This document shows positions 13,581 to 46,333 of a stretch of DNA of 64,000 bases, piece after piece. The stretch is taken from assembly GCF_000166355.1 (NCBI RefSeq), contig NC_014652.1, positions 62,001 through 126,000 of the forward strand. Reading direction: 5' to 3'. The DNA is from Caldicellulosiruptor hydrothermalis 108 (lineage in GTDB: Bacteria > Bacillota > Thermoanaerobacteria > Caldicellulosiruptorales > Caldicellulosiruptoraceae). The notes under the pieces were generated by a model, which was not told the origin of the DNA, searched no databases, and saw only the letters and a program-made list of their open reading frames with translations. The position numbers were made by a program, and so were the translations under genes. Every line of letters starts with the position of its first letter. Within the stretch, counting starts at the first letter, position 1.

Positions 13581-13617
13581 AAGAATTAAAACCAATGTGA
13601 AACTGTTATTTTGCCAG

Positions 13618-13660
13618 AGGGTTGCAGGGCAAGGTATGGTCTTGCAACCCTGTATTTTAA
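13618..13660 (+). terminator. Hairpin between GH16 and phosphorylase genes (weak terminator or attenuator)
   Basis: AGGGTTGCA (13618-13626) pairs perfectly with TGCAACCCT (13643-13651) around a 16-base loop, followed by a short T-rich stretch (GTATTTTAAATT). The tail is weak, so it may lower rather than stop expression of the next gene, which starts at 13687 behind a strong ribosome site. Confidence 0.55.
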
Positions 13661-13686
13661 ATTAAAAAAAGAAGGGGGCAAAGAAA

Positions 13687-16920: not shown

Positions 16921-16930
16921 CTTCAAAGAA

Positions 16931-16975
16931 GGCTACACTGCCGTCTATTTTTTCAGCGGTAGTGTAGTCTTTTTG
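16931..16975 (+). terminator. Rho-independent terminator after the phosphorylase gene
   Basis: GGCTACACTGCCG (16931-16943) pairs with CGGTAGTGTAGTC (16957-16969), including G-T wobbles, and is followed by TTTTT. It ends the beta-1,3-glucan block; kinase B starts 28 bases later. Confidence 0.85.
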
Positions 16976-17002
16976 ACATTTTATATCAGGAGAGAAAGTA
17001 AA

Positions 17003-18772: not shown

Positions 18773-19487
18773 AGAAATCTTGCTTGAAAGGCTTGTAAAA
18801 ACTATAGACTGGGAGAGCATTGGGATTAATAAAGTCATCGGTATTGCTCGTAGCGAAGAGGCTTTAAATGTCCTGATAACAGAAAACGTGGATATAATTC
18901 TGACGGATATCAGGATGCCAATTATGGATGGACTTGATTTAGCAGAGTTTGTACACAGTAGACTAAAACATCCATTGAGTGGTTATAAAGAATTTGAGTA
19001 TGCCCACAGAGCAATTAAACTTGGTGTTGTGGATTATATCTTAAAACCATTTACCAAGGAAGAGGTTTTAGAAACTGTAAAAAAAGCGGTTGAAAAAGTA
19101 GCAGCTGAACAAAGTAGGCAGCAACGTTTAGATTCCTGTGAGAACAAAAACATAATTGATATGGTCTTTGATTTTATTTTTGCAAATTGTTCAAAACAAA
19201 TAAGCCTGAATGATGTAGCGGAGTATGTCCATCTTCACCCTGTGTATCTTAGCAGGCTTTTGAAAAACAAAACTGGAAAAACTTTTAAAGAGATACTCAC
19301 TGAAGTGAGGCTCAAAAAAGCAGAAAAGCTTTTGAAAACTTCCAGCTTAAAGCATTACGAAATTGCTGAGGCAGTTGGATTTTCAGATGCCCAGTATTTC
19401 AGCCAAGTATTCAAAAAAGTATATGGTATGACACCTATTGAGTGGAAGAAGCAAGTTTTGGAAAATAAAGCGAGGTTAAAAATTTAA
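18744..19487 (+). CDS. Short YesN-type response regulator with a shortened receiver (pair B)
   Basis: This 247-residue protein has a receiver (D55 in ILTDIRMP, K in ILKPF) joined directly to an AraC HTH domain (about 145-243), without the long middle region of the 515- and 529-residue relatives here. The receiver reads RLKHPLSGYKEFEYA around residue 78, whereas the others read like KPKIIVISGYDEFSYA. About five to seven residues that should form strand beta-4, just before the conserved Ser/Thr, are missing. The frame stays open, so this is an in-frame deletion rather than a frameshift. The DNA-binding domain looks intact, so the protein may work without normal phosphorylation, or may be impaired. 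Confidence 0.85.
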   Translation: MCTLLIVEDEEILLERLVKTIDWESIGINKVIGIARSEEALNVLITENVDIILTDIRMPIMDGLDLAEFVHSRLKHPLSGYKEFEYAHRAIKLGVVDYILKPFTKEEVLETVKKAVEKVAAEQSRQQRLDSCENKNIIDMVFDFIFANCSKQISLNDVAEYVHLHPVYLSRLLKNKTGKTFKEILTEVRLKKAEKLLKTSSLKHYEIAEAVGFSDAQYFSQVFKKVYGMTPIEWKKQVLENKARLKI

Positions 19488-19578
19488 ACAAAAAAGTTGT
19501 GTTTGTCTATATAGGCTATTGGGCATTTCACACTAAAATTAAAAGTGAAAAACAAAAATAAAGGGAGGTAAATTTTAA

Positions 19579-20883
19579 ATGAAAAAGTGGTTAAAAGTTG
19601 TGGCTTTAGCTATTTTAGTGGTCTTTTCAATTTCAGTTGTTTTAGTCGGTCAAATGGGTGAAAAAAAGGTACAAGGTGCAACAAATGAGCTTACATTCTG
19701 GAGCTGGGTTTCTGACTCTGACACCATAAAACAGGTGTATGAGCAGGCTATCAAAGAGTTTAACTCTACTAACAAGTACGGTGTGAAAATCAAGGCTGTT
19801 TACACTCCAGGTGAGCAGTACAAAACAAAACTTCAAACAGCAATGGCAGCAAACAATCCACCAGATATTCTCAACATGTGGGCAGCTGGTAAGATGAAAC
19901 CATATGTAGATGCAAAAAGGCTTTTCCCAATTAGCGACATCATGAACAAAGACCCACAATGGAAAAACAGGTATGTCAATGGCGTTTTTGACCTGACAAC
20001 TTTTGGCGGCAAAATCTATGGTATTCCTCAGATAAGAGTTGCAACAGTTATATACTACAACAAACAAATCTTCGCAAAATACAAACTCACACCTCCAAAG
20101 ACATGGTCAGAGCTTGTAAATGTTATAAAGGTTTTGACAAAGAACAATGTAATCCCATTCGCACTTGATGCAAGAGACCCGTGGATCTTGGCAATGTATG
20201 CAGAGTATATTGCAAACAGAATAGACCCGGACGCTTACAGAAAAGTTCAAAAAGATCCAAACGCATGGACAGACAAAGCGTTTATTGAGACAGGCAAGAA
20301 GATACAGGAGCTTGTCAAACTTGGTGCTTTCCCAAAAGGTGCAACAAGCTTAGATTATGTTGCAGCAAGAAATCTATTTGACCAAGGAAAAGCTGCGATG
20401 TATGTCATGGGAATATGGGATGTTGGGTATCTGTCAACTCAATCACCAGTCAAGAAATATGTAGGTGCATTCAAATGGCCAGCAATAGAAGGTGGAAAAG
20501 GCAATATAAACAACTTCCTCGCAGGAATTGAACAGGTCATTGCAGTAAGTTCAAACTGCAAGAACAAACAGGCTGCTGCTGCATGGCTAAAACTTTTATC
20601 TGAACAGAGATATGCAAAGGACCTGTTGGCCGAAAAAGCAGGGTATTTCCCGACAGTAAAAGTAAATCCCGACCCAAAGAAAGTTACAGGTCTGTATCTT
20701 GAGGTTTTGAATTTATTAAAGGACCAGAACACAAAAGATTCATTCACATACTATGATGTTATGTTTGGACCGATAATTGGCGATGGATTTAACAACACAA
20801 TACAGTCCATTTATCTTGGAAAAGACCCTGTTGAAGCATTCAAAAAGCTTGCAGAGATTGCTAAAAAAGAAATGAAAAAATAA
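19579..20883 (+). CDS. Sugar ABC transporter substrate-binding protein (transporter 2)
   Basis: This 434-residue family 1 extracellular binding protein (MalE-like) has a signal peptide at 1-34 (KKWLK, hydrophobic core, VQGA) with no lipobox cysteine. The mature protein starts ATNELTFWSW and contains MAANNPPDILNMW and YYNKQIFAKY, which are typical of oligosaccharide-binding proteins. AAGGGAGGT precedes ATG 19579. It leads the operon 19579-22731 and is followed by a stem-loop before the permeases. Its position next to the GH65 enzymes suggests alpha-glucosidic disaccharides or oligosaccharides, by context. Confidence 0.88.
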   Translation: MKKWLKVVALAILVVFSISVVLVGQMGEKKVQGATNELTFWSWVSDSDTIKQVYEQAIKEFNSTNKYGVKIKAVYTPGEQYKTKLQTAMAANNPPDILNMWAAGKMKPYVDAKRLFPISDIMNKDPQWKNRYVNGVFDLTTFGGKIYGIPQIRVATVIYYNKQIFAKYKLTPPKTWSELVNVIKVLTKNNVIPFALDARDPWILAMYAEYIANRIDPDAYRKVQKDPNAWTDKAFIETGKKIQELVKLGAFPKGATSLDYVAARNLFDQGKAAMYVMGIWDVGYLSTQSPVKKYVGAFKWPAIEGGKGNINNFLAGIEQVIAVSSNCKNKQAAAAWLKLLSEQRYAKDLLAEKAGYFPTVKVNPDPKKVTGLYLEVLNLLKDQNTKDSFTYYDVMFGPIIGDGFNNTIQSIYLGKDPVEAFKKLAEIAKKEMKK

Positions 20884-20890
20884 AAACTTT

Positions 20891-20923
20891 TGAGCCGAAG
20901 GGTAGTATGTGCTCTTCGGCTCA
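20891..20923 (+). other. Intercistronic stem-loop between binding protein and permease (transporter 2)
   Basis: TGAGCCGAAG (20891-20900) and CTTCGGCTCA (20914-20923) form a perfect 10-pair stem with a 13-base loop. No U-tract follows (ATCTAAATA), so it is more likely a partial stop or a 3'-end protector of the binding-protein message than a full terminator. Confidence 0.65.
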
Positions 20924-20982
20924 ATCTAAATATAGCAAGATAAGACAAAAAGCCTAAATAGAAGAATAGAGAGGTGAAAAAA

Positions 20983-21861
20983 TTGGAAAGAGCATTTGGA
21001 AATAAACTTGCTATTGCTATATTCATTGCACCAGCGCTAATACTTTTTACACTGGTTATTCCTCTTCCTATTTTGCATTCATTTTATATGAGCCTTTTTA
21101 AATGGGATATGCTATCTACAATGACTTATGTGGGCTTTGAAAATTATAAAGAGCTGTTTTCTGATGGAATATTTTTATCCTCAATTTGGCACACAATTGA
21201 AATAACAGTACTTTCATTAATTTTTCAGGTCACCTTAGGGCTTTTCCTGGCTCTGTGCATAGTTAACATAATAAAAGGAAGGAAATACTTTCAGAATGCT
21301 TTTTTTATACCTAATATCTTATCAAGTGCTGTAATAGGAATATTGTGGTTTTTTGTGTATAACTATGACTTTGGGCTTATAAATTCAATTTTAAAGAGCA
21401 TTGGCCTTGATTCTTTGCAGCAAGAGTGGCTTTCGCAAAAATATGTTATCCTTGCACTGTCCATCACAACATGCTGGCAGTGGGTAGGATATCATATGAT
21501 TTTGTATATCGCAGCTATTTCAGGAATATCACAGGATATCATTGAAGCAGCTATTGTTGATGGTGCGCAAGGGCTGAAAATGGTCACTAAAATAATAATT
21601 CCTCAAATTCGTCCTGTCTTGAGAGTTTCAATAGTTTTGATTATCACAGGTTCACTGAAGTACTTTGACATGGCATGGATAATGACTGAAGGCGGTCCAG
21701 ATTTTGCTTCTGAGACAATCGCTACATATATCTACAGAACAGCATTTAACAAACTTCAGTATGGTCTTGGCAGTGCAGCGTCAACCTTTTTGTTTGTTGT
21801 AAGTATTTTAGTTACTGTTCTTATAAATAGGTTTGCTGCTAAAAGAGAAGAGGTGTACTAA
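20983..21861 (+). CDS. Sugar ABC transporter permease, MalF-like (transporter 2)
   Basis: This is a 292-residue six-helix permease with the EAA loop EAAIVDGAQ followed by KIIIP. TTG 20983 is chosen because GAGGTG (20971-20976) sits 6 bases before it; the alternative GTG at 20974 lies inside that ribosome site. It pairs with the next permease, 21 bases downstream. Confidence 0.87.
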   Translation: MERAFGNKLAIAIFIAPALILFTLVIPLPILHSFYMSLFKWDMLSTMTYVGFENYKELFSDGIFLSSIWHTIEITVLSLIFQVTLGLFLALCIVNIIKGRKYFQNAFFIPNILSSAVIGILWFFVYNYDFGLINSILKSIGLDSLQQEWLSQKYVILALSITTCWQWVGYHMILYIAAISGISQDIIEAAIVDGAQGLKMVTKIIIPQIRPVLRVSIVLIITGSLKYFDMAWIMTEGGPDFASETIATYIYRTAFNKLQYGLGSAASTFLFVVSILVTVLINRFAAKREEVY

Positions 21862-21882
21862 GTTTTGTGAGGTGGTATGAAA

Positions 21883-22731
21883 ATGTTTGCAAAATACATT
21901 AAACTTTCTCCTGTGGCAAAAGCAATAATATTCGCATTTTTGACCTTTTATTCAATATTGACATTATTTCCATTAATATGGCTTGTGTACAACTCGGTAA
22001 AGACCAACAATGATTTTCTGGCAAATCCTTTCGGTTTGCCGCAATTGTCCAAACTTCAACTTAAAAATTACTATGATGCATGGGTGACTATGGGAATTCA
22101 GAGGTTTACGATAAACAGTCTCATAATCTCTTCTGTAAGTGTAATTTTTTCACTTATTATAAGCTCAATGGCAGCATATGCAATTGAGAGGATGATATGG
22201 AGGTCAAGCCAAAAAGTTTTGAATTACTTTTTAGCCGGCATCATGGTTCCAATACAGATAATATTGATTCCACTTTTTATAAACTTTAAAAAGCTAAACC
22301 TTTTGGACTCACGCATAGGACTTTTGATTCCAACAGTTGCATTTGCCCTGCCAACTTCGATTTTTATTTTAACTGGATTTTACAAAACAATCCCACACGA
22401 ATTAGAAGAAGCAGCTTTGATTGACGGCTGCTCTGTCTACAAGATATTTTACAAGATAATTCTTCCGTTGACGATGCCGGCTTTTGTAACAATTGCAGTC
22501 TTCAATTTCCTTGGCGCATGGAATGACCTTTTGATACCCCTGGTTTTGATACAGACACCAGAACTTATGACACTGCCTGTTGGACTTTTGAATTTTAGGG
22601 GGATGTATGGAGCTGAGCTTACCAAAATGTTTGCTGCAGTTGTAATCTCTGCAATACCAAGCATAATAATTTACTTTGTTTTGCAAGACAAACTTCTAAA
22701 AGGTATGATAGCCGGGGCTGTGAAGGGGTAA
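21883..22731 (+). CDS. Sugar ABC transporter permease, MalG-like (transporter 2)
   Basis: This is a 282-residue six-helix permease with the EAA loop EAALIDGCS followed by KIILP and the usual C-terminus MIAGAVKG. ATG 21883 sits 7 bases after GAGGTGG; ATG 21877 is too close to that site. It is the last gene before a terminator, so transporter 2 is a complete binding protein plus two-permease set without an ATPase. Confidence 0.87.
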   Translation: MFAKYIKLSPVAKAIIFAFLTFYSILTLFPLIWLVYNSVKTNNDFLANPFGLPQLSKLQLKNYYDAWVTMGIQRFTINSLIISSVSVIFSLIISSMAAYAIERMIWRSSQKVLNYFLAGIMVPIQIILIPLFINFKKLNLLDSRIGLLIPTVAFALPTSIFILTGFYKTIPHELEEAALIDGCSVYKIFYKIILPLTMPAFVTIAVFNFLGAWNDLLIPLVLIQTPELMTLPVGLLNFRGMYGAELTKMFAAVVISAIPSIIIYFVLQDKLLKGMIAGAVKG

Positions 22732-22760
22732 AAAGTGGAAATAAGGAGAAACCAAAATTA

Positions 22761-22797
22761 AGGGACTGGCAAATAAAGCAACGACCAGTCCTTTTTT
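22761..22797 (+). terminator. Rho-independent terminator of transporter 2 operon
   Basis: GGACTGG (22763-22769) pairs with CCAGTCC (22785-22791), followed by TTTTTTG. The stem is compact with a good U-tract. Confidence 0.8.
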
Positions 22798-22943
22798 GTT
22801 TGCCATAAAAAACTTTTTGTATCCAATAAATAACAATAATTTTACAAACCTTTTTGCATTTTTACCCACTTTAAAAGAAAGCAGGGGGTACTTATTATAT
22901 AAATTGTCAAATAAAAATAAACCAATTTGAAGGGGGATTTGTG

Positions 22944-24365
22944 ATGAACAGGTTGTTTTACTTAAGGAATTGGCGAATTGTGGGTATTGTGACAGCATTG
23001 ATTTTCTTGGCTGGAATTGTTTTGGGAATTGCCTTGATTTCTTCAAAGCCGGCAAAAGCAGTTGCCTCTCAGACTGTTTCCATCAGAGTTGGTATTTGGC
23101 CACTTGACAATGATGAAGCAGGCAAAAAAGCATGGCAAAAGTATGAGCAAAACTTCAAAAAGAAATATCCAAACATTAAGTTGATTCCTGATCCATATTC
23201 ATATTCGCCAGAAACATTTCTTCCAAAAGCAGAAAGTGGAGACTTGCCGAACATATTTTATACATGGTTTACAGAACCAAGAAAAATAATACCAGCTGGA
23301 TATGCAGCAGATATTACAACATATGCGAAAAAATATGGGTATGACAAAGCAATAAATCCAGATGTTTTAAAGCTTTTGACTTATAATGGGAAAATTTATG
23401 GTATTCCACGTGATGGTTATGCTTTAGGGCTTTACCTCAACATGAACCTTTTCAAAAAGGCTGGCTTAGTTGACAAAAATGGCCTTCCAAAATATCCAAA
23501 AACATGGGATGAACTTAGAAAAACAGCACAAATCATAAAGCAAAAGACAGGAAAAGCAGGCTTTTTCATGCCGAGCAAGGACAATGTAGGTGGCTGGCAC
23601 TTCACAGCTATCGCATGGTCATTTGGCGCAGAATTTGAAAAGAAAGTGGGTAACAAATGGGTACAGGGACTTGATAGCCCAGGTGCGGTTGCAGCATTGC
23701 AGTTCATCAAAGATTTGAAATGGAAATACAATGTACTTTTGCCAAACACACTGCTCAGCTGGGGCGATTGGATCAAGTACTATGGTACAGACCAGGTTGG
23801 AATGGTTTTGGCAGCACCAGACGTTATTAACCTGCCTGTTCAAGATTACAAGATGAGCAAAGATGCGATAGCAATTGTCCCAATTCCAAAGGGACCAAAA
23901 GGACAGTACACATTGATGGGCGGAACAGCAATAATGTTCTCATCAAACAGCACACCTGCACAGATTGATGCATGCTTTAAACTCCTTGAGGTTATAGGCA
24001 TGTCACCTAAGGTTAATAAAGAAACACTTAATGCTATTGAAATAAGCCTCAAAGAAAAAGCAGCTCAAGGCTTACCAGTTGGTCCAAGAGCGCTTCCTGT
24101 TTGGATAAATAAAGAAAGAGTTCAGGCAGAGGACGCTATCTACAAGAAATATACAAATGTCAATATGGCACTTTTCAAACCATACTATGATGAAGCGTTC
24201 AAACACTTGAAACCTGAAGAACCTTACTATACTCAAGATCTTTACAGAATATTAGATGGGTGTATCCAACAAGTTTTGACAAATAAGAATGCTGACCCCA
24301 AGAAGATATTACAAGCAGCAGGCAGAGAATTTCAGACTAAGTTCTTAGATAAAGTAAAAGAATAA
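22944..24365 (+). CDS. Sugar ABC transporter substrate-binding protein (transporter 3)
   Basis: This is a 473-residue MalE-like binding protein. The N-terminus has an unusually long lead-in (MNRLFYLRNWR) before the hydrophobic segment (about 13-34), ending KPAKAVAS with no cysteine; it could be a signal peptide or an uncleaved anchor. Features such as LPNIFYTWF and GKIYGIPRD fit this family. ATG 22944 is preferred over GTG 22941 for spacing from GAAGGGGGA. It is followed by a stem-loop and two permeases, then the GH65 genes. Alpha-1,3-gluco-oligosaccharides are a plausible cargo, by context. Confidence 0.87.
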   Translation: MNRLFYLRNWRIVGIVTALIFLAGIVLGIALISSKPAKAVASQTVSIRVGIWPLDNDEAGKKAWQKYEQNFKKKYPNIKLIPDPYSYSPETFLPKAESGDLPNIFYTWFTEPRKIIPAGYAADITTYAKKYGYDKAINPDVLKLLTYNGKIYGIPRDGYALGLYLNMNLFKKAGLVDKNGLPKYPKTWDELRKTAQIIKQKTGKAGFFMPSKDNVGGWHFTAIAWSFGAEFEKKVGNKWVQGLDSPGAVAALQFIKDLKWKYNVLLPNTLLSWGDWIKYYGTDQVGMVLAAPDVINLPVQDYKMSKDAIAIVPIPKGPKGQYTLMGGTAIMFSSNSTPAQIDACFKLLEVIGMSPKVNKETLNAIEISLKEKAAQGLPVGPRALPVWINKERVQAEDAIYKKYTNVNMALFKPYYDEAFKHLKPEEPYYTQDLYRILDGCIQQVLTNKNADPKKILQAAGREFQTKFLDKVKE

Positions 24366-24386
24366 ACCTACAAAGTAGCTTGAGGT

Positions 24387-24420
24387 TGGGGAGGAAGTGG
24401 TGAAAAACTACTTCCTCCCA
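24387..24420 (+). other. Intercistronic stem-loop between binding protein and permease (transporter 3)
   Basis: GGGAGGAAGT (24389-24398) pairs perfectly with ACTTCCTCCC (24410-24419) around an 11-base loop. The following ATAATTAAA is not a U-tract. It has the same architecture and position as the stem-loops of the other transporters. Confidence 0.65.
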
Positions 24421-24485
24421 TAATTAAATTCTTTGTTAGGGTAGCAAATGTATGTATAAAGCTTTTAAAAAGGTGGGATTGGATT

Positions 24486-25385
24486 GTGAATAAGAAAATG
24501 AGTGGGAAACTATCAAACAGGTTATCCGAAAATATTTCTGGTTGGTTGATTTTAGCACCAAGCATAATTCTTTTTACTTTCTACATTTGGGAGCCAATGA
24601 TCTATAGCTTGGTATTATCTGTACATGAAACAAAGGGATTTAGGATGGAGAGATTTGTTGGTCTCCAAAATTATATTGATGTTTTGAAAGACAACGTTTT
24701 TCATCAAGCTCTAATAAATACATTCTTTTACGTAATCTGGTCACTTATAATAGGGTTTTTAGTACCCATTGTTGTGGCTCTAATAATTAACGAAATGGTA
24801 CATTTGAATTCATTTTTTAGGTTTTCCATATACTTTCCCAATATGGTTCCTGGGGTTGCCGCGCTTGTTCTGTGGGGATTTTTGTTTGACCCGAGCGAAG
24901 GTGGACTTTTGAATGCTATTAGGATAAAGCTAGGTCTTCAGCCTTCTGACTGGCTACAAAATCCCAAACTTACAATTCCTCTTTTAATATTCATCATGAC
25001 GTGGAAAGCCGCAGGTTCAACAGCCCTAATTTATATTGCAAGGCTTCAGGGGATAAATCAGGAGCTGTATGAGGCTGCTTGCATTGATGGGGCAGGGATT
25101 TTTAGAAGAATTGTTCATATTACACTTCCTGAGCTATATTCCACAGCAAGAATGCTTTTAATAATGCAGATAATATTTGTCTTCCAGGTATTGTACGAAC
25201 CACTTGTTTTAACCGGTGGTGGACCAAACAACGCATCGCTGTCGTTGATGCTTTTGAGCTACAACTATGCTTTTGTTGATTTTGTTGCTGGAAAGTCTGC
25301 AACTGTAAGTGTACTGGTTACTTTGATTCTAATGTGTCTCACCTTCATATATATGAAAGCTACAAAAGAAAATAATAATGTTTAA
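24486..25385 (+). CDS. Sugar ABC transporter permease, MalF-like (transporter 3)
   Basis: This is a 299-residue six-helix permease with the EAA loop EAACIDGAG followed by HITLP. GTG 24486 is 8 bases after AGGTGGG. Its 3' end overlaps the next permease by 8 bases, indicating translational coupling. Confidence 0.87.
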   Translation: MNKKMSGKLSNRLSENISGWLILAPSIILFTFYIWEPMIYSLVLSVHETKGFRMERFVGLQNYIDVLKDNVFHQALINTFFYVIWSLIIGFLVPIVVALIINEMVHLNSFFRFSIYFPNMVPGVAALVLWGFLFDPSEGGLLNAIRIKLGLQPSDWLQNPKLTIPLLIFIMTWKAAGSTALIYIARLQGINQELYEAACIDGAGIFRRIVHITLPELYSTARMLLIMQIIFVFQVLYEPLVLTGGGPNNASLSLMLLSYNYAFVDFVAGKSATVSVLVTLILMCLTFIYMKATKENNNV

Positions 25386-26289
25386 AAACCTTGCAAGGGG
25401 GCTCAGAAACTTGAGTAGATTAGATTCAAAAACAAGTGGTATTATAAATTTTTTAGACCTCAGAAAACCAAGTGTAAAAGCACTTTATTATATACTTTTG
25501 TTTATTAGCTGTTGCATTGCATTTGTGTGTTTAGCACCGCCTTTGTGGGTATTTCTATCAAGCTTGAAGAATATAAAAGAATTTGCTCAGGTGCCGCCCA
25601 CAATAATTCCACATACATTTGAACCTCAAAAGATAATAACCACCTGGAAAACTCTCAATTTTACAAAGTACTATATAAACTCCTTCATTTTAGTAGCAGG
25701 AAGTGTGGTGTGTGCAATAGTTTTCAATGGCTTGGCAGGATATGTTATCTCAATCATCAAGCCGCGAGGGTATAGATTTGTATTCAATCTAATTTTATGG
25801 AGTTTGATGATTCCTGCAACCATCAATCTTGTACCTATTTTTAAGAATATAGTTGCGCTTAAACTAAACAACTCATACATTCCACTGTGGCTCAGCTATG
25901 GTGCAAATGCTTTTTATGTGCTGCTATTTAAAAATTTCTTTGATGAGATTCCAAGAGAGATCATTGAAGCTGCTAAAATTGATGGATGCCCTAACTTGAG
26001 ACTGTTTTACAAGATTGTTATGCCACTTAGCGTTCCAATAATAATGGTGGTGACAATATTTTCCATAAATGCTTCATGGTCGGATTTTCTCCTGCCTTAT
26101 ATTGTTCTAAAAAACCGTGAAAGTTATACAGTTATGATAAAGATATATGAAATGTCTTTCGGGAACACATGGATGTCTGCTGATATGAAGATGTTAGCAG
26201 TGCTTTATGCAATATTGCCACCAGTGGTATTGGTAATATTCTTCCAGAAATATCTCACTCAGGGCGTTGTAATTGGAGGATTAAAGTAA
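25378..26289 (+). CDS. Sugar ABC transporter permease, MalG-like (transporter 3)
   Basis: This is a 303-residue permease with a longer N-terminal tail (about 35 residues) before the first helix. Its EAA loop is EAAKIDGCP followed by KIVMP, and it ends GVVIGGLK. ATG 25378 overlaps the previous gene, so coupling rather than a strong ribosome site probably drives translation. The GH65 gene starts 56 bases downstream with no terminator between them, which supports a shared transcript. Confidence 0.87.
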   Translation: MFKNLARGLRNLSRLDSKTSGIINFLDLRKPSVKALYYILLFISCCIAFVCLAPPLWVFLSSLKNIKEFAQVPPTIIPHTFEPQKIITTWKTLNFTKYYINSFILVAGSVVCAIVFNGLAGYVISIIKPRGYRFVFNLILWSLMIPATINLVPIFKNIVALKLNNSYIPLWLSYGANAFYVLLFKNFFDEIPREIIEAAKIDGCPNLRLFYKIVMPLSVPIIMVVTIFSINASWSDFLLPYIVLKNRESYTVMIKIYEMSFGNTWMSADMKMLAVLYAILPPVVLVIFFQKYLTQGVVIGGLK

Positions 26290-26345
26290 TTGATATTTAG
26301 AAATATTTGGACACAAAAATAAAAAATGAATGAGGTGTTGACAGA

Positions 26346-28643
26346 GTGATAAATAAAAAGGGTAGCAGATATGTAAAAGTAGATCCATGGTGCATCATAG
26401 AAGAAAATTTTGACAAATCAAACATGAGGGTTTTAGAATCTCTGTTTACTGTGAGTAACGGTTACATTGGTACAAGAGGCTACTTTGATGAGTTTTACAC
26501 AGGGGATACTCACATCGGCACTTACGTTGCAGGTGTGTTTGAAGAAATATATGAAAAACCTTCGTACAAAGGAGTGCCAAACAGAACCCAGTTTGTTGTC
26601 AACAATGCAAACTGGCTGTACACAAGAATTATTGCAGATGGTGAGGAGCTTGACCTGAACCATTCTAATTTTTCGGAGTACAAAAGAGTGCTTGATCTTA
26701 AAAAAGGTATTTTGACAAGAGAATTTATTTGGCACACCGAAAAAGGGTCAAGTTTTAAGCTCAAGTTTGAAAGATTTATTAGCATGACTAAAAGCAATGT
26801 ATGCTGTCAGAAGATAGAAATCACATCGTTGAATAAAAGTGGTAAGGTAAAAATCATCAGTGGGGTTGATTTTTCTCACAAGCACAGGATATATGACACA
26901 AACTACTGGGAGGGCTTATTTAAATCAAATGAAAATGATTACATCTCTATTGGATGTAAAACAATAAAGACCAACAAAATAAGCATTGCAAACTTTAAAA
27001 TAGAGGCAAACAAGGCATGTGAGCAAGGAATTGTTGAAGGAGAGAAGATCATAGCAAAAGAGATGGTTTTTGATATAGAAGAAAATGAAACCATAGAGAT
27101 TGAAAAGGTTGTTGTTATAAATTCGTTTGATAGATTAAATGAAAATTTGCAGAGCAAAAATGGAAAGCTTTGTCAGTCCGTATTTGGTCAATATAGCTAT
27201 TCAAAGCTGAAACAAGAGCACGAAAGATTCTGGGAGAGGATGTGGGAAGAAGTTGATATTGAAATAGGGCAAGATAGCGAAAATCAGCAGGGTATAAGGT
27301 TCTGCATATTCCAGATGCTGCAAGCATACTCAGGCATGCAACAGGTTGTTGCTGGGATTGGTGCAAAAGGTTTAAGCGGTGAAGTATACAATGGCAATTC
27401 GTTCTGGGACAGTGAAGTTTACTGTCTTCCATTCTACCTATTTACAAACATTGATGCAGCAAAAAAGCTTTTAGAGTTTAGATACTATACCCTGCCCCAG
27501 GCACAACAAAGAGCTAAAGAGCTTGATTTGAAAGGAGCATTTTATCCAATCGCCACAATTGATGGCACAGAGTCATGTACGCTGTGGCAGCATGCGAATT
27601 TGCAGCTTCAGGTAAGTACAGCCGTTGCATATGGACTTTATCACTATTATATTGTCACAAAAGATGAAAAGTTTTTGTTTGAAAAAGGGACAGAGATATT
27701 AATTGAAGTTTGTAGGATGCTGGAGAGTAGGTGTCAACTTGGGCAAAAAGATGGCAAGTATGGCTTTTTTGGAGTAATGGGACCTGATGAGTTTCACATG
27801 ATGGTAAACAACGATTTTTACACAAATTACATGGCAAAAAAGAGTTTAGAGTTTACAATAGAGGTCTTGAAACTACTAAAAGCCAAAGATGAAAAATTAT
27901 ATAATGAAATAACCAGAAAAACAAAACTTGAAAGAAATGAAGTTGAAAGATGGGCTGATATTGCAAAAAATATGAAAATAATTCAAGACCCTCAGAGCAA
28001 GGTGTTTGAACAGCATGAAGGCTATTTTAACCTGCCTCATATTGAACTTTCAACAATTCCCGAAGACCAAATTCCAATATACAAAAATTGGGCCTATGAC
28101 AGGATATTCAGGTATGACATGATAAAACAGCCTGCAGTTTTGCTCTGCATGCTTCTTTATAGCTGTGACTTTTCTTTTGAAGAGAAAAAAGCAAATTATG
28201 ACTATTATGATTTGAGGTGTATTCATGAATCGTCACTGTCTCCTTCAATTCATTCTATTCTGGCATGTGAACTTGGCTATTATGACAAGGCTTATGAGTA
28301 CTTCAGGTATGCCACACGCCTGGACCTTGACAATTACAACAGAAACACTGAAGAAGGACTTCATATAACCTCGCTGGCTGCGGCATGGCTGAACATCGTC
28401 TACGGTTTTGGTGGTATGAGATCTGATACAGCGCCCATAAAGCTTGCTCCAATCATTCCAGATAACTGGAGTTATTATTCTTTCAGAATCAAATATAATG
28501 GAGCGGTATTAAAGATAGTTGTAGACCCACAGTATGTTACTATCAAAAAGCTCAAAGGTGCAGATGTTGAGCTGATGGTTTATGATAAAACCTACACCAT
28601 AACAGAAGATGAGATTAAAATCCCGCTTCAGAAAAGGAGGTAA
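26346..28643 (+). CDS. GH65 alpha-glucoside phosphorylase, probably alpha-1,3-specific (first copy)
   Basis: This is a 765-residue cytoplasmic GH65 enzyme with an N-terminal beta-sandwich (about 1-270), an (alpha/alpha)6 barrel (about 300-690) and a small C-terminal beta domain. The general acid is E482 in VMGPDEFH, followed by YTN. GH65 phosphorylases invert the linkage and release beta-glucose-1-phosphate, and a beta-phosphoglucomutase gene lies two genes downstream. Characterised members cleave maltose, trehalose, kojibiose, nigerose or alpha-1,3-oligoglucan; motif reading cannot choose among them. The GH87 gene in the same block favours nigerose or nigero-oligosaccharides, and kojibiose is the main alternative. 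GTG 26346 follows GAGGTG by 8 bases. Confidence 0.85.
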   Translation: MINKKGSRYVKVDPWCIIEENFDKSNMRVLESLFTVSNGYIGTRGYFDEFYTGDTHIGTYVAGVFEEIYEKPSYKGVPNRTQFVVNNANWLYTRIIADGEELDLNHSNFSEYKRVLDLKKGILTREFIWHTEKGSSFKLKFERFISMTKSNVCCQKIEITSLNKSGKVKIISGVDFSHKHRIYDTNYWEGLFKSNENDYISIGCKTIKTNKISIANFKIEANKACEQGIVEGEKIIAKEMVFDIEENETIEIEKVVVINSFDRLNENLQSKNGKLCQSVFGQYSYSKLKQEHERFWERMWEEVDIEIGQDSENQQGIRFCIFQMLQAYSGMQQVVAGIGAKGLSGEVYNGNSFWDSEVYCLPFYLFTNIDAAKKLLEFRYYTLPQAQQRAKELDLKGAFYPIATIDGTESCTLWQHANLQLQVSTAVAYGLYHYYIVTKDEKFLFEKGTEILIEVCRMLESRCQLGQKDGKYGFFGVMGPDEFHMMVNNDFYTNYMAKKSLEFTIEVLKLLKAKDEKLYNEITRKTKLERNEVERWADIAKNMKIIQDPQSKVFEQHEGYFNLPHIELSTIPEDQIPIYKNWAYDRIFRYDMIKQPAVLLCMLLYSCDFSFEEKKANYDYYDLRCIHESSLSPSIHSILACELGYYDKAYEYFRYATRLDLDNYNRNTEEGLHITSLAAAWLNIVYGFGGMRSDTAPIKLAPIIPDNWSYYSFRIKYNGAVLKIVVDPQYVTIKKLKGADVELMVYDKTYTITEDEIKIPLQKRR

Positions 28644-28645
28644 AT

Positions 28646-30931: not shown

Positions 30932-30935
30932 AGCA

Positions 30936-31604
30936 TTGGTTCCTATCAAAGTTCTTCTAAAAAGGATAGAAGGTGCAATATTTGACTTGGATGGTGTCAT
31001 CGTAGACACAGCAAAATATCACTATTCTGCGTGGAAAAAGCTTGCGAACATGTTGGGGTTTGAATTTACTGAAAAGGACAATGAAAAGCTCAAAGGTGTT
31101 AGCAGAAAAGAGTCGCTTGAAATACTTCTCAAAATAGGTGGCAAAGAAAATGAGTTTAGTGAAGCCCAAAAAGAAGAATTGATGGATATAAAAAACAGCT
31201 GGTATTTGGAGTATATCAACAAGCTGACAGAAGATGAGATTCTTCCGGGCGCAAAAGAGCTCATATTGACCTTAAAAGAACAAGGCATAAAAACGGGATT
31301 AGCAACAGCAAGCAAAAATGCAATGTTGATACTTGAAAGGCTCAACATAAAAGATTTGTTTGACGCAATTGTTGATGGTACGCAGATATCCCGGGCAAAA
31401 CCTGACCCTGAAATATTCTTAAAGTGCGCTCAAAAACTCAAAATAGACCCACAAAAGTGCGTTGTGTTTGAAGATGCAGCAGCAGGCATAAAAGCAGCAA
31501 AACTGGCTGGAATGTTTGCAGTTGGAGTGGGTTCGTGTGATATGCTGGGAGAAGCTGATATAGTTATTTGCAGCTTAGACCAGTTAATAAAGGAACTCAA
31601 GTAA
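30936..31604 (+). CDS. pgmB: Beta-phosphoglucomutase (HAD family)
   Basis: This is a 222-residue HAD-superfamily enzyme with a four-helix cap. Motif I is FDLDGVIVDT, with nucleophile D17 and D19. Motif II lies in LATAS, motif III at RAKPDPEIF and motif IV at VFEDAAAGIKAA. This is the beta-phosphoglucomutase pattern, which converts beta-glucose-1-phosphate to glucose-6-phosphate. The gene lies 4 bases after the second GH65 gene and starts at TTG 30936 with AAGGAG 9 bases upstream. The link is functionally telling, because GH65 enzymes make beta-glucose-1-phosphate, which the ordinary alpha-mutase cannot use. Confidence 0.9.
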   Translation: MVPIKVLLKRIEGAIFDLDGVIVDTAKYHYSAWKKLANMLGFEFTEKDNEKLKGVSRKESLEILLKIGGKENEFSEAQKEELMDIKNSWYLEYINKLTEDEILPGAKELILTLKEQGIKTGLATASKNAMLILERLNIKDLFDAIVDGTQISRAKPDPEIFLKCAQKLKIDPQKCVVFEDAAAGIKAAKLAGMFAVGVGSCDMLGEADIVICSLDQLIKELK

Positions 31605-31655
31605 CGGCAATAATTATATTAATATAAAAATATTGTAATAAAAGGAGGTTGCAAA

Positions 31656-33650
31656 ATGATAAAAAAGCTATGTAGTTTAATTTTAATTATGGTTTTTCTT
31701 TTTAGTTCTTTTCCAGTTGCATTCGCAGACATCAGAGTAGAGACTCCTTACATGGAATACCAAGGAGATACTTTGAAGTTTTACTCTACAGTTGAAAGCG
31801 ACATATATGGGGAACTTTCTATAGGGGATGAAGTATTAGTTTCGGTTTACGCAATAAAAGAGGATGGCAATAGCATTTTGTTAGGACAAGGGAAAATTGT
31901 TATACTTGATGTGTATCAAGACCAAACGGATGGTAAGGTCTACTACAATGGGTCGAACTACAACTTAATAGAAACCAGCATTCCAGTATCAAGTGCGCTG
32001 CTGACAAATTCCTCTAAAATCAAGTTTTATACAGCGACATTGAATAAAATCACTAATACATCTAATTCATCGTATTCTATTTTTGCACTTCCACCAATCA
32101 TCCTGCCAAATCCTGCATCTGTTGATAAAACAGCTCTTGGAAATGCGGACTTGGAACTGAGCATGTATCTTCCTACATCTGTGCAAATATCAAAAATTGT
32201 TAAAGCAGCTACTCAGACCGAACTTAAAAAGGACATAGATTATGTTGTATCGAATAACAAACTCTATTTTAAAAATACCTATGTCAAAAATTTAAGCTTA
32301 GGTCAAAATGAATTTGAGATATATGACAACTTTGGGAATATAACAATTTTAAAAATAAATGTGACTGAGTCTGCTCACGTTCCATCAAACCAGCAAGGTT
32401 CAACTCCATCTCAGAGTTCTGGCTCAGCAGCAACAAATGCAGGTAGTAATCAACAGGGAAGTTTTCAACAACAGCCCGCAGAAGATAGGTCAAAATTAGA
32501 AAGTCCTATACAACTTTCAGTAGACGAGAATTTAAATACAGCAAATGCCACAGTAGACAAAGATACAATTTCTAAGTTGTTACTTTCACAAAAAGTGGAG
32601 GAGACGAAGAAATTAGTTTTAGATGTCAAAGCACAAGAAAATATAAGCACATATAATATGAACTTGCCAAAAGACACTTTGCAAGTTCTTTCTGACAAGG
32701 TGGAAAGTCTCAAGATTACAACACCAGTATGTAGCTTGGAACTAAATAAGACACTCCTACAAGATATAAAAGACAAAGAAGTTTCTGTCAAAGTGTCTAA
32801 TAAAACAGAGAATATTGCCGAGAGCGTAAAACAAATTTTGGGTCAAAAACCAATAGTTTCAGTTCAAATCACTGCAGGGGATGCAAAATTAGAAAGCTTG
32901 GGCAAAAGTGCGGTCAAGCTTGAGATTCCGTACAAGCCATCGGCAATTGAAAAGGAAAATACTCACAAGCTTGTTGGTGTGAGGATTGATGGAGACAATA
33001 TTGTAACTTTAAAGCAAAGCTTTTATTCTGCCCAGGATGGCCATTTCGTAATTTTTACAGATCATTTGAGCGATTTTTCTCTCCTTTACAGGGATGTTAG
33101 CTTTGACGATGCGTTCTATTCATATGCTAAAAAACAAATTGAGTTTTTAGCGACAAGAGATGTTATAAAGGGTGTTGGGAAGAACAAATTTATGCCTAAG
33201 AATAATATCACACGTGCAGATTTTGTTACATTAATTGTAAGAGCATTTGGACTTGAAGCTCGAGTGGACTCTAACTTTGATGATGTCCTTCCATCAGATT
33301 ATTATTATCAAACGGTAGGTATCGCAAAGAAACTTGGCATTGTAAATGGTGTTGGCAACAACAAGTTTGAACCAAAGAAAAATATCACACGTGAAGATGT
33401 AATGTGCATATTGGCAAGAACACTAAAGGTTTTGGGTTTACTGATAACAAATGTTGAACCAGAAAAGGTTTTAGGCAAGTTTAATGATGCTGAGCAAATC
33501 TCAAGTTATGCAAAAGATGCAATCGCACAGCTTGTAAATGCTCAAATTGTAAGTGGTTACAATAACATGCTAAGTCCAAAGAGGAATCTCACAAGGGAAG
33601 AATCTGCTGTGCTTTTGTACAATATCTACCAGAATATTCTCTTGAGGTAA
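31656..33650 (+). CDS. Non-catalytic S-layer-anchored protein with a CBM_X2-like domain
   Basis: This 664-residue exported protein has a signal peptide (1-24, ending VAFA), an N-terminal beta-rich region (about 25-155), and a CBM_X2-like domain (about 155-245; DKTALGNADLELSM, IDYVVSNN and LYFKNTYVKNL follow that pattern). A Ser/Gln/Asn-rich linker (about 245-275) precedes a region common next to S-layer domains (about 285-480), then three SLH domains (about 482-664, with IKGVGKNKFMPK, VNGVGNNKFEPK and SGYNNMLSPK). No glycosidase catalytic domain is visible. AAAGGAGG precedes ATG 31656. It sits between the GH65/pgmB genes and the GH87 gene, so a role in holding alpha-glucan or the enzyme at the cell surface is plausible but unproven. 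Confidence 0.75.
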   Translation: MIKKLCSLILIMVFLFSSFPVAFADIRVETPYMEYQGDTLKFYSTVESDIYGELSIGDEVLVSVYAIKEDGNSILLGQGKIVILDVYQDQTDGKVYYNGSNYNLIETSIPVSSALLTNSSKIKFYTATLNKITNTSNSSYSIFALPPIILPNPASVDKTALGNADLELSMYLPTSVQISKIVKAATQTELKKDIDYVVSNNKLYFKNTYVKNLSLGQNEFEIYDNFGNITILKINVTESAHVPSNQQGSTPSQSSGSAATNAGSNQQGSFQQQPAEDRSKLESPIQLSVDENLNTANATVDKDTISKLLLSQKVEETKKLVLDVKAQENISTYNMNLPKDTLQVLSDKVESLKITTPVCSLELNKTLLQDIKDKEVSVKVSNKTENIAESVKQILGQKPIVSVQITAGDAKLESLGKSAVKLEIPYKPSAIEKENTHKLVGVRIDGDNIVTLKQSFYSAQDGHFVIFTDHLSDFSLLYRDVSFDDAFYSYAKKQIEFLATRDVIKGVGKNKFMPKNNITRADFVTLIVRAFGLEARVDSNFDDVLPSDYYYQTVGIAKKLGIVNGVGNNKFEPKKNITREDVMCILARTLKVLGLLITNVEPEKVLGKFNDAEQISSYAKDAIAQLVNAQIVSGYNNMLSPKRNLTREESAVLLYNIYQNILLR

Positions 33651-33682
33651 ATTTATAAATAAACGGGGAGGGAAAAGATGCT

Positions 33683-36600
33683 ATGAAAAGAAGGCTTGTT
33701 TCAATCATAACCATTCTTATTCAACTACTGAGTTTGATTGCATATGTGCCGGCAGTTCATGCCCAAGGCTTGCCTGATTTGATTGTTACAGATATTACGT
33801 GGCAGCCAGCAAATCCTCAGGCAGGCGACAAGGTACTCTTCAGTGTAACAATCAAAAATGTAGGTGATGCACCAACTCCAAGCGGAGTTGTCCATGGTGT
33901 TGGATTTCACATTGACAATGACTATACACGATTTTGGTGGACTGATAACTTCACAGGGCCCTTGCAACCTGGAGAAGAGAAAACACTGACAGTGACAGGT
34001 GGAATGGGTGGTCCTGATAGAAATCTGCCAACCTGGGATGCTATTGGTGGGCGTCATACCGTATGGGCGTTTGTTGATGATTACGACCCAAATCCAGGTG
34101 ACGATATAACAGGTAGAATAAAAGAGAGCAATGAAGACAACAATGTGTTCGGGAAAGAAATACTTGTTACAGCTTCATCAAGTGGTCCACGAATTGTCAG
34201 AATAAAGAGTGCATGGACAGGCCAGTATGTTTATCAAGCAGGGGATAAACTTGAGTACAGCTATGACATACCTGCAGAAGATGCCCGTTCACAGTGGATA
34301 ATTGAAGAGTTTGAAGGCAGTATCAGAATTAAAAATAGAGCAACGTACAATTATATTCACATTGAAAATTATGATTCAAAGAAATATGTTGAATGCGGCA
34401 ATATAGATGATAGCTGGTACAGCGCACGCTGGGTACTGGAGGAAGCAGGAGGTTCATATAGAATAAAAAGTGCATACAAAAATACACAGTATTTGAATAT
34501 AGAGGGAAATCCTGGTCATGTTGTTTTGAGTGAAGTCTACCCTGAATGGGATTCCGCGAAATGGATTTTGGAAGATGTTGATATTACTCAAGACTATACA
34601 GCACCACTACCTGACTTGGTTATTGAGGATGTATACTGGGAGCCGGCAAATCCTCAAGAAGGCGATGATGTTTTGTTCAAAGTAAAAGTTAAAAATATTG
34701 GCGAGGGTGCTGTCCAACAAGGAGAACAGATTGCAGCAGGTTTTAATGTAGATGGCAAAGCACCATGGTTTTGGACTGATCTTTACACAGGCGGTTTGGC
34801 GGTAGGACAGAGCATTGTCTTGCCAGTTATAGGCGGTACTGAAGGAAAGTATTGGAAAGCAAAGAGCGGAATTCACACTCTTTATTGCAATGTAGACGAT
34901 TATGACCCTGACCCGAATGATGACAAAGTGGGTAGAGTAAAAGAGAGCAATGACAATAACAACTCATTCCACAAGCGACTGCCATATATTCCAAAAGCCC
35001 AACCAAAGGAAGAACCGCTGCCTCTTATATGTGGCGCAGTCTATGTTGGTGGAAAATTGAATGTTGCAAAAGATGTTTACCATAATGATACAAGAGCAGA
35101 AAATAAGGTAAAGCAAATAAGAGAGAAGTTTAATAATCTTAAGAACAACAATAATGTTGATGCTTCGTTATTTGATGAACTGGCTAAATATAAGATTGAA
35201 AAGGTGGTTGTTGGAACTCCAAATCCTGCTAACACCAAGCCAAGCAAATTTGCTATGTATTGGGATGAGAATTACTTATACGCAGTTGTTCGAGTTTATG
35301 ACGCTGCAAAGAGAAAAGATGCACCAGATCCAGGGCAAATATGGAATAATGACAGTGTTGAGATTTATCTTGATATGGACAGAAACAAAGAAGATTCTTA
35401 TACATCAGATGATTTCCAGTACTTCTTTGGCTGGAACTATGAACAGCCAATGGAATTTAAACACAATGCAATTCAAAATGTAAGATTTACTCAACATGAT
35501 TTTGATGATGGTTATGGAATGTTAATCGAGATTCCGTGGACAACACTTGGCGTATCTGCTCAGAAGAACATGGTATTTGGTTTTGATATAGCAATAGATG
35601 ATAACTACGCAAATCAAACCCGCGGGTGCCAATATATTTGGAATTCAAAAGATGACCAGGCATGGCAGTATCCAAATAGGTTTGGTGACTGTCAGCTTGT
35701 TTTGGGCCTGGGAACTCCAAAGCAGCTTCCACCACAACAAAAACAACAAGCTCAAAAACCAGAAGCACCACCATATCAAGTACCAGCTGGCATTGGAGCA
35801 AGCGTGCCATGGATAGAGCTTGAAGCAGAAAGTGCATCAACAAACGGTGATATCATAGGACCATCTTATGAGGTCAATGATGAAGCAAATGAAGCATCCA
35901 ACAGAAGGTTTGTAAGACTTGATCAGGTTGGAGAATATGTAGAGTTTACTGTACCCAGTGAAGTAAATTCAATTGTTGTAAGGTACAGCATCCCTGATAG
36001 CGACGATGGTAAAGGAATTGATGCAACACTTTCGCTTTTTGTAAATGGTCAGTTTAGACAGAAATTGAACCTTACATCAAGATACAGCTGGGTATATGGA
36101 GCATACCCGTGGAGCAACGACCCATCTTTTGGTGCACCAAGGTATTACTTTGATGAAGTGAGAGCATTGATTGGGCAGGTTAACCCAGGAGATAAAATAA
36201 GGTTGCAGGTGGACAGTGGTGATGATTCGCCATACTATGACATTGACCTGATAGACATTGAAAATGTGCCACCACCACTTACAAAACCAGATAATTTCCT
36301 GGACATAAGAGATTTTGGTGCAATACCAAATGATGGAAAGGATGATACAAAAGCTATTTATGATGCAATTTTCGCTGCAAAACAGCAGGGCAAGGGTGTA
36401 TGGATACCTGAGGGCGTGTTTGAAAAATTAGAAGGACCTGTTGTTGACAATGTATACAGTGGTTTTAGCGGCACAGGCTACGTAAAAGGCTTTGATGTAA
36501 TTGGAGCAACAGAGAAACTACTCATAACAGGTATACCATCAGATGGAAATAATACAATGGAAATTCGATACTCAAATGCAACAAACACTAATCAGACACT

Positions 36601-37768
36601 ATCGTTCATAGTAAATGGAAAGAGATATGAAGTTTCACTGCCGCCAACTGGTAGTTGGGATAGTTGGCAGACTGCAACAATTGATGTTGCGCTCAATACC
36701 GAAAGAAACCTGCTTCAGATAATTCATCAATATGAGGATACAGGGAATATTTACCTTGACTATGTAAAAGTGAACACTACCTTGTTCGAAGCAGAAGACG
36801 GGTGGCTGACATGTCCAATATATGTTGATAATGTGACAATTAGAGGAGCCGGCATGTGGTACTCAACAATAAGTGGTCCATACTCGCAATTTGTTCTGAT
36901 GGGCAACAACTGCAAATTCTACGATTTTGCAATATTTGGTGAGACAAATTCAAGAATTGATGAGCTTGACGACAATGCATTCTCAGGCTGGGGAGGAACA
37001 GGATCTGTTCTTGAGAACATTTGGGTTGAACATAAAAAATGTGGATTTTGGGTTGGAAACTCTAAATACGGCAGAACTGATGGACTTGTTATCAGAAACT
37101 GCAGATTTAGAAACTTAATGGCTGATGGTGTAAATCTTTGTGATGGTACTATTAATTCAATAATTGAAAACTGCCATGCAAGAAATACCGGCGATGATGC
37201 TTTTGCAATTTGGTCTGCAACATACAACCAAAATGTTTGGGCATGTGAAAATAATATTATACGCAATAACACTGTACAACAACCATGGCTTGCACAAGGA
37301 ATAGCAGTGTACGGAGGCAGTAACAATATTGTAGAGAATAACCTAATAATAGATGTCCCAACATCTGCAGGAATATTAATTAGCACTACATTCCCGTGCA
37401 TACCATTTAGCGGAATAACAGAAATAAGAAGAAATAGTATCATAAGAGCTGGTGAGCCAAGTGGTAAATTGGGGGCAATAAGGATAATGTCTGACCAGCA
37501 AGATATATCTGGAATTGCAATAAAGGACCTTGACTTATATGATTGTACAGATGTGGGAATAAGGTTTATGGGCACAAAACAAGCAAATGGAATTGTATTT
37601 GAAAATGTTCGTATTAACTACACTGGTTCATATGGTATATACGCATCAGGTGAGACAAAAGGTACAGTTATATTTAAGAATGTAACAATTGACAATACCG
37701 CACTTGAGAAGGTAATGATAGAGACACCTAATATGAATGTTCAAAAACTTGAAGGTAACAACTGGTAA
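33683..37768 (+). CDS. Secreted multidomain GH87 alpha-1,3-glucanase (mycodextranase family)
   Basis: This 1361-residue protein has a signal peptide (1-27, ending AVHA); a CARDB-like domain (30-163); a beta-trefoil with three repeats marked SQWIIEE, ARWVLEE and AKWILED (about 170-296); a second CARDB (about 309-436); a CBM9-like domain (about 448-675); a CBM35-like domain (about 708-863); and a right-handed beta-helix (about 869-1361). The helix has GH87 hallmarks: VTIRGAGMWYSTI, MADGVNL (D1148) and RNTGDDAFAIW (D1171, D1172), with the 23-residue spacing I recall for the catalytic aspartates of known GH87 enzymes. A further CBM6/35-like unit (about 925-1040) is inserted into the helix domain. 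It should cut alpha-1,3-glucan (or nigeran) outside the cell. It has no SLH domain and follows the SLH protein by 32 bases. Confidence 0.85.
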   Translation: MKRRLVSIITILIQLLSLIAYVPAVHAQGLPDLIVTDITWQPANPQAGDKVLFSVTIKNVGDAPTPSGVVHGVGFHIDNDYTRFWWTDNFTGPLQPGEEKTLTVTGGMGGPDRNLPTWDAIGGRHTVWAFVDDYDPNPGDDITGRIKESNEDNNVFGKEILVTASSSGPRIVRIKSAWTGQYVYQAGDKLEYSYDIPAEDARSQWIIEEFEGSIRIKNRATYNYIHIENYDSKKYVECGNIDDSWYSARWVLEEAGGSYRIKSAYKNTQYLNIEGNPGHVVLSEVYPEWDSAKWILEDVDITQDYTAPLPDLVIEDVYWEPANPQEGDDVLFKVKVKNIGEGAVQQGEQIAAGFNVDGKAPWFWTDLYTGGLAVGQSIVLPVIGGTEGKYWKAKSGIHTLYCNVDDYDPDPNDDKVGRVKESNDNNNSFHKRLPYIPKAQPKEEPLPLICGAVYVGGKLNVAKDVYHNDTRAENKVKQIREKFNNLKNNNNVDASLFDELAKYKIEKVVVGTPNPANTKPSKFAMYWDENYLYAVVRVYDAAKRKDAPDPGQIWNNDSVEIYLDMDRNKEDSYTSDDFQYFFGWNYEQPMEFKHNAIQNVRFTQHDFDDGYGMLIEIPWTTLGVSAQKNMVFGFDIAIDDNYANQTRGCQYIWNSKDDQAWQYPNRFGDCQLVLGLGTPKQLPPQQKQQAQKPEAPPYQVPAGIGASVPWIELEAESASTNGDIIGPSYEVNDEANEASNRRFVRLDQVGEYVEFTVPSEVNSIVVRYSIPDSDDGKGIDATLSLFVNGQFRQKLNLTSRYSWVYGAYPWSNDPSFGAPRYYFDEVRALIGQVNPGDKIRLQVDSGDDSPYYDIDLIDIENVPPPLTKPDNFLDIRDFGAIPNDGKDDTKAIYDAIFAAKQQGKGVWIPEGVFEKLEGPVVDNVYSGFSGTGYVKGFDVIGATEKLLITGIPSDGNNTMEIRYSNATNTNQTLSFIVNGKRYEVSLPPTGSWDSWQTATIDVALNTERNLLQIIHQYEDTGNIYLDYVKVNTTLFEAEDGWLTCPIYVDNVTIRGAGMWYSTISGPYSQFVLMGNNCKFYDFAIFGETNSRIDELDDNAFSGWGGTGSVLENIWVEHKKCGFWVGNSKYGRTDGLVIRNCRFRNLMADGVNLCDGTINSIIENCHARNTGDDAFAIWSATYNQNVWACENNIIRNNTVQQPWLAQGIAVYGGSNNIVENNLIIDVPTSAGILISTTFPCIPFSGITEIRRNSIIRAGEPSGKLGAIRIMSDQQDISGIAIKDLDLYDCTDVGIRFMGTKQANGIVFENVRINYTGSYGIYASGETKGTVIFKNVTIDNTALEKVMIETPNMNVQKLEGNNW

Positions 37769-37778
37769 TTTCTCTTTT

Positions 37779-37817
37779 CCCCCACTTTGCACATAACGCA
37801 AGGTGGGGGTTGTTTTT
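37779..37817 (+). terminator. Rho-independent terminator after the GH87 gene
   Basis: CCCCCACTTTGC (37779-37790) pairs with GCAAGGTGGGGG (37798-37809), with one mismatch or wobble near the loop, followed by TTGTTTTTAT. It closes the alpha-1,3-glucan block. Confidence 0.88.
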
Positions 37818-37857
37818 ATAAGTTTAAACAACAACTAATAATTTGTAAATTTTTATA

Positions 37858-37866
37858 TGATATAAT
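37858..37866 (+). promoter_or_regulatory. Extended -10 promoter element before the truncated sensor
   Basis: TGATATAAT matches an extended -10 box (TGnTATAAT), 33 bases before the GTG start at 37899. No convincing -35 box is at the right distance, as is common for extended -10 promoters. Confidence 0.4.
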
Positions 37867-37898
37867 TAGAAATATAAACTTATCAAGGAGTGTTTTAA

Positions 37899-38906: not shown

Positions 38907-38908
38907 CA

Positions 38909-46331: not shown

Positions 46332-46333
46332 AC

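Follow-up and report, generated by a model that had tools for sequence, protein, structure and literature searches.

A predicted phosphorolytic unit for alpha-1,3-glucan utilisation in Caldicellulosiruptor hydrothermalis 108

The region 22941-41921 of the window, which is the whole 64,000-nucleotide stretch of Caldicellulosiruptor hydrothermalis 108 DNA analysed here (contig NC_014652.1, positions 62,001 to 126,000), very likely forms a unit for the utilisation of alpha-1,3-glucan by phosphorolysis. In the proposed route, a secreted GH87 enzyme would cut alpha-1,3-glucan into short nigero-oligosaccharides, with an SLH protein as a possible anchor for the glucan on the cell surface, and the oligosaccharides would be taken up by an importer of predicted specificity, composed of the binding protein SBP2, its permeases and an ATPase encoded elsewhere. 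Inside the cell, a first GH65 enzyme (GH65 A) would phosphorolyse chains of at least three units, releasing beta-glucose-1-phosphate and leaving nigerose; a second (GH65 B), whose substrate is predicted, would split nigerose with phosphate; and beta-phosphoglucomutase (bPGM) would convert beta-glucose-1-phosphate to glucose-6-phosphate, the expression of the set being under the putative control of a histidine kinase, a response regulator and a dCache receptor (HK2, RR2 and cacheX). A kinase is required in addition for the final glucose of every chain.

The core of this route, from GH87 through import and GH65 phosphorolysis to bPGM, had been proposed in a first-pass annotation of the same DNA, and it is supported by catalytic residues, a specificity motif, gene neighbourhoods across phyla, fusion proteins and the published assay of an enzyme that is almost certainly GH65 A. 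We regard the route as very probably real; the novelty first claimed for it is mostly not borne out. That annotation had also described the chain as closed, which is slightly too strong given the predicted substrate of GH65 B and the kinase required for the last glucose.

Gene content and limits of the unit

The genome is a single contig of 2,770,676 bp, with 35.5% GC in its first 126 kb. Domains were identified with Pfam and NCBIfam, and the extent of the unit follows from these searches together with synteny among congeners and across lineages (Table 1). The open reading frames place the secreted GH87, the importers, the two tandem GH65 genes, bPGM and the SLH gene on the plus strand where they had first been described, and domain scores above cut-off confirm the GH87, GH65 and bPGM assignments, as three SLH repeats do that of the SLH protein. 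From GH65 A through GH65 B, bPGM and the SLH gene to GH87, the intergenic gaps are 2, 4, 51 and 32 bp.

Table 1. Features of the alpha-1,3-glucan unit and its upstream border (window coordinates)
Feature	Position	Strand	Evidence
Hairpin and T-run between beta-1,3-glucan and alpha-1,3-glucan units	22760-22797	+	-13.4 kcal/mol, z -2.4, then TTTTTT
SBP2, extracellular sugar-binding protein of the alpha-glucan importer	22941-24365	+	SBP_bac_8, 83 bits
Importer permeases (two)	24486-25385; 25378-26289	+	BPD_transp_1, 50 and 54 bits
GH65 A, alpha-1,3-oligoglucan phosphorylase (almost certainly)	26346-28643	+	Three GH65 domains above cut-off; motif FAIT-A; clade A
GH65 B, predicted nigerose phosphorylase	28646-30931	+	Three GH65 domains above cut-off; motif EEQSYG; clade B
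bPGM	30936-31604	+	TIGR01990 equivalog, 251 bits (cut-off 189.4)
SLH surface protein with CBM_X2-like module	31656-33650	+	Three SLH repeats; CBM_X2 24.8 bits, below its cut-off
GH87, predicted secreted multidomain alpha-1,3-glucanase	33683-37768	+	CatAgl_D1, CatAgl_D2; catalytic Asp trio
Terminator-like hairpin 3' of GH87	37779-37809	+	12 pairs and T-rich tail; -22.8 kcal/mol, z -6.2
cacheX, two-TM dCache receptor without kinase	37899-38906	+	dCache_1, 43.9 bits, just below cut-off 45
HK2, YesM-type sensor histidine kinase	38909-40642	-	His_kinase, 94 bits
RR2, AraC-type response regulator	40632-41921	-	Response_reg 98 bits, HTH_18 78 bits

The unit had initially been placed at 19579-37768 and credited with both ABC importers. 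The genes in between stand, yet both ends move: the start lies at 22941, and the unit extends past 37768 into a regulatory trio that ends at 41921. A single operon running from 19579, with both importers devoted to alpha-1,3-glucan, would account for the shared strand of all these genes and the narrow spaces between them, but we give it only a slim chance. The segment 13687-22731, which holds a GH161 gene, a kinase, a regulator, the binding protein SBP1 and two permeases, is found whole in four congeners and partially in two more, all of which are without 22814-31604 and every other alpha-glucan gene. This synteny with the upstream GH161 genes assigns the importer at 19579-22731 to a beta-1,3-glucan unit, and its membership in the alpha-glucan unit was rejected on that ground. 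The SBP2 importer keeps its place: SBP2 and its permeases adjoin the GH65 pair in many phyla among the fetched loci, a position in which SBP1 was not found in other phyla. The two importers are further separated by the hairpin and T-run at 22760-22797, and an accessory block begins at the permease stop, 22731.

This block measures 30.5 kb (about 22.73-53.23 kb; 22731-53249) and is present in 3 of 12 congeners, namely G000, G004 and G010. In another congener, G001, position 22731 is followed by 223 bp and then by position 53249, a near-empty site. No transposase was seen by Pfam within the block. The copy in G010 is missing the SLH and GH87 genes between 31638 and 37855 and retains the GH65 pair.

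Each importer consists of a binding protein and two permeases, with no ATPase gene beside it. A genome search found a single TOBE_2 (MsmK/UgpC-type) ATPase elsewhere, which is the likely partner of both. Between SBP2 and the first permease there is a strong hairpin without a T-run (24389-24419; -24.5 kcal/mol, z -6.1), which possibly sets the ratio of binding protein to permease.

Enzymes of the route

The GH87 protein begins with a signal-peptide-like sequence and carries both catalytic domains of its family, CatAgl_D1 (PF22815, 168 bits) and CatAgl_D2 (PF22816, 102 bits; cut-off 27). Its best PDB matches are the alpha-1,3-glucanases 5zru and 7c7d. The first of these is Agl-KA from Bacillus circulans, whose catalytic Asp trio is D1067, D1090 and D1091 and whose main products are tetra- and disaccharides (PMC6814745); residues D1148, D1171 and D1172 of the window protein align to this trio, and the two enzymes share the same catalytic unit, a galactose-binding-like domain with a beta-helix. 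The module order here is two CARDB, a CBM9, catalytic D1, an inserted CBM35/6-like module and catalytic D2, so that, in comparison with Agl-KA, the insert in the catalytic region and the N-terminal CARDB and CBM9 modules are additions. The protein is predicted to hydrolyse alpha-1,3-glucan to short nigero-oligosaccharides. Two further GH87 proteins are encoded in the same genome (L113, 9011-11545 and 14100-18986; about 2.483-2.493 Mb), one of them with three SLH repeats, and a chemoreceptor gene lies between the two.

The SLH protein encoded upstream of GH87 may have a role in holding the glucan at the cell surface. Its residues 262-660 correspond to a module widespread among surface proteins, and its N-terminal part matches G004 only. 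The AlphaFold model of this protein had a mean pLDDT of 35 and was set aside.

For GH65 A, the residues at CsKP positions 64, 392, 394, 402, 416 and 585 are F, A, I, T, a gap and A. This FAIT-A motif fits the FAITQA of ChGP, an enzyme of C. hydrothermalis, with position 416 falling in an alignment gap (a loop). De Beul and others expressed ChGP, having predicted its function from FAITQA, and showed that it elongates nigerose and other disaccharides into alpha-1,3-oligoglucans (PMC8537180); a second paper gives its locus tag as Calhy_0070 (PMC8950772). Among the four GH65 genes of the genome, FAIT-A occurs only in GH65 A, the others having EEQSYG, EEAPWE and ARIA-H, and counting the genes roughly puts GH65 A at about number 72, to be set against locus tag 0070. 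Thus, GH65 A is almost certainly ChGP (Calhy_0070, ADQ05832.1), and hence already assayed as an alpha-1,3-oligoglucan phosphorylase, an identification drawn from motif, organism and gene ordinal rather than from a letter-by-letter comparison. Activity on nigero-oligosaccharides is published for ChGP (PMC8537180). As for the phosphate site (Lys, two Ser and His, as defined in PMC8626586), GH65 A has, together with the catalytic Glu, the residues K/E/S/S/H, which are kept in all 53 clade-A sequences.

GH65 B carries the motif EEQSYG, which is not among the motifs printed in PMC8537180, and the residues R/E/S/T/H at the phosphate site and catalytic Glu. Its relatives form a well-supported clade B in which EEQ[TS]Y is found in nearly all of 61 sequences, Arg replaces Lys at the phosphate site, as in the phosphorylase 4KTP, and 6 of the 61 have Thr instead of the second Ser. 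A tree of part of the sequences makes clade B sister to the 2-O-alpha-glucosylglycerol phosphorylase 4KTP and clade A sister to maltose phosphorylase; a recent tandem duplication as the origin of the pair was therefore rejected, A and B being two old, separate clades.

The substrate of GH65 B is predicted from the following considerations. Since the acceptors of ChGP are disaccharides, phosphorolysis by this enzyme should leave nigerose, and a nigerose-splitting partner would be needed. Fusion proteins with bPGM as the N-terminal part and GH65 B behind it are encoded by three genomes belonging to a single clostridial family (L158 12641-15697, L172 and L173; 995-1103 aa), which indicates beta-glucose-1-phosphate as the product of GH65 B. 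A comparable pair exists in Lachnoclostridium phytofermentans, where Cphy_3313/Cphy_3314 are a nigerose phosphorylase and an alpha-1,3-oligoglucan phosphorylase (Nihira 2014, as summarised in PMC8950772), two neighbouring GH65 enzymes of which one serves longer chains and one the disaccharide, as proposed here; the likeness is drawn from the description of that pair, and the summary documents no GH87 beside it. By this analogy, GH65 B is most likely the nigerose-splitting partner. A search of the open-access literature found no assay of GH65 B and no recorded substrate for the clade with the motif EEQ[TS]Y.

GH65 B could instead cleave another alpha-glucoside (kojibiose, glucosylglycerol or a disaccharide from branch points) and share the operon through a natural polymer of mixed linkage. 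We consider this unlikely. In its favour, GH65 B has the W391/E392 pair of kojibiose phosphorylases, and its sister group and nearest solved relative is the glucosylglycerol enzyme 4KTP. Against it, the motif resembles neither, agreeing with the kojibiose motif EEAPxx at the first two positions only and with EIGPHP, as read for 4KTP, at the first only; a separate kojibiose-type enzyme (EEAPWE) is encoded in the genome; and clade B is the constant partner of the oligoglucan phosphorylase clade, with GH87 a recurrent neighbour.

It is harder still to credit that the two GH65 enzymes are devoted to a soluble sugar such as maltose or trehalose, with GH87 as an incidental neighbour, a reading that is already largely refuted. 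The sister position of maltose phosphorylase to clade A and the retention of the pair without GH87 in G010 would suit it, but it is opposed by the ChGP assay (PMC8537180), by the presence of GH87 in nine independent loci and in none of the controls described below, and by the motifs. Those of maltose (KV[MF]NES) and trehalose (TRIGPP) phosphorylases are absent from both enzymes, which have FAIT-A and EEQSYG; maltose and trehalose phosphorylase were accordingly rejected as candidates.

Recurrence of the phosphorylase pair in other phyla

A search of named genomes with GH65 B as the query gave 80 loci, 51 of clade B and 29 with other GH65 types, the latter serving as a control. A clade-A gene was adjacent in 37 of the 51 clade-B loci and in 0 of 29 controls, and bPGM in 33/51 and 18/29. 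By profile search, GH87 was present in the fetched stretch of 9/51 and 0/29, respectively (Fisher p = 0.013, which is only indicative, many loci being MAGs, some close relatives and some incomplete); most clade-B loci fetched were without it, many of these being incomplete. The pattern is nevertheless plain. Among the sources of the loci are Clostridium, Anaerolineales, Spirochaetes, Actinomycetota and Acholeplasmataceae. The GH65 pair with bPGM is thus an old cassette common to several phyla, a recurrence beyond what chance would give.

To the first-pass annotation, the combination of such a GH65 pair with GH87 and an SLH protein in a thermophile had looked new. GH87 accompanies the pair in Anaerolineales and Spirochaetes, in an Actinomycetota MAG and in clostridia, and a single stretch from another clostridial family (L155) combines kinase, regulator, SBP2, GH65 A, permeases, GH65 B and GH87, so that the pairing with GH87 is not new. 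Moreover, a putative GH87 lies near the nigerose phosphorylase Cphy1874 of L. phytofermentans (Nihira 2012, as reported in PMC9061262), where a GH65 phosphorylase, an ABC importer and GH87 were proposed for alpha-1,3-glucan, as here. In contrast with the window, that locus has a single GH65, together with a GH31 alpha-1,3-glucosidase and LacI regulators, and the account does not mention an SLH protein. The open-access literature searched held no paper describing the present locus; the passages available from the ChGP papers (PMC8537180, PMC8950772) concern the enzyme alone, and it is the locus that is described here.

Regulatory trio and neighbouring fungal-wall genes

The genes for cacheX, HK2 and RR2 (37899-41921) form a trio that also flanks the cassette in several further clostridial lineages, with its convergent arrangement unchanged; HK2 finds its best match among kinases flanking the cassette elsewhere, and RR2 recurs with it. 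The receptor cacheX, which crosses the membrane twice and has a dCache domain, stops where the HAMP region begins and therefore carries no kinase; its relatives are equally short (313-336 aa). When 399 genomes from the phylum were scanned with a profile of the family, 6 gave a match, in every case beside the same kinase, in the cassette, or both, and the GH65 pair was present in five of the six, the exception being G397. Four of these matches are congeners or profile members, which leaves G380 and G397 as independent support. A strict tie of cacheX to alpha-glucan was rejected because in G397 (L193) importer, kinase, regulator and cacheX occur without GH65, beside a GH28-like protein. The family is rare, and its neighbours are always an importer and a kinase of the same types. 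Taken together, HK2 and RR2 with the kinase-less cacheX probably control expression of the unit.

Upstream of the alpha-glucan genes lies a beta-1,3-glucan unit (8382-22731), with an SLH-GH16 protein bearing five CBM4_9 modules (at 8382), a GH161 phosphorylase (at 13687; 763 bits to PDB 9qqk), a two-component system and its own importer. A chitin route is found at 45294-53088 and 54237-57078: the accessory block contains a GH94 chitobiose phosphorylase, which matches 1v7v with 1187 bits, together with a GlmM-like mutase and a NagB-II-like SIS protein, and conserved GH20 and NagA genes adjoin this set. The window therefore has phosphorolytic routes for beta-1,3-glucan, alpha-1,3-glucan and chitin, all three of them polymers of the fungal wall, and its gene content points to a possible specialisation on fungal walls. 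We put forward only tentatively the fuller picture of three such routes side by side (SLH-GH16 with GH161; GH87 with the GH65 pair; chitobiose phosphorylase with GH20 and NagA), in which the latter two phosphorylase sets would be gained and lost together in one 30.5-kb block and the alpha-glucan sensor would be split between a YesM-type kinase and a conserved, kinase-less dCache partner.

The unit presents the phosphorolytic pathway for alpha-1,3-glucan in a complete, testable form from a thermophile; thermostable enzymes of this set would be useful for work on the polymer. The unit also flags the clade with the motif EEQ[TS]Y as a widespread GH65 clade for substrate studies. It suggests, too, that this genus, which has been studied for plant biomass, has the means to feed on the walls of fungi.
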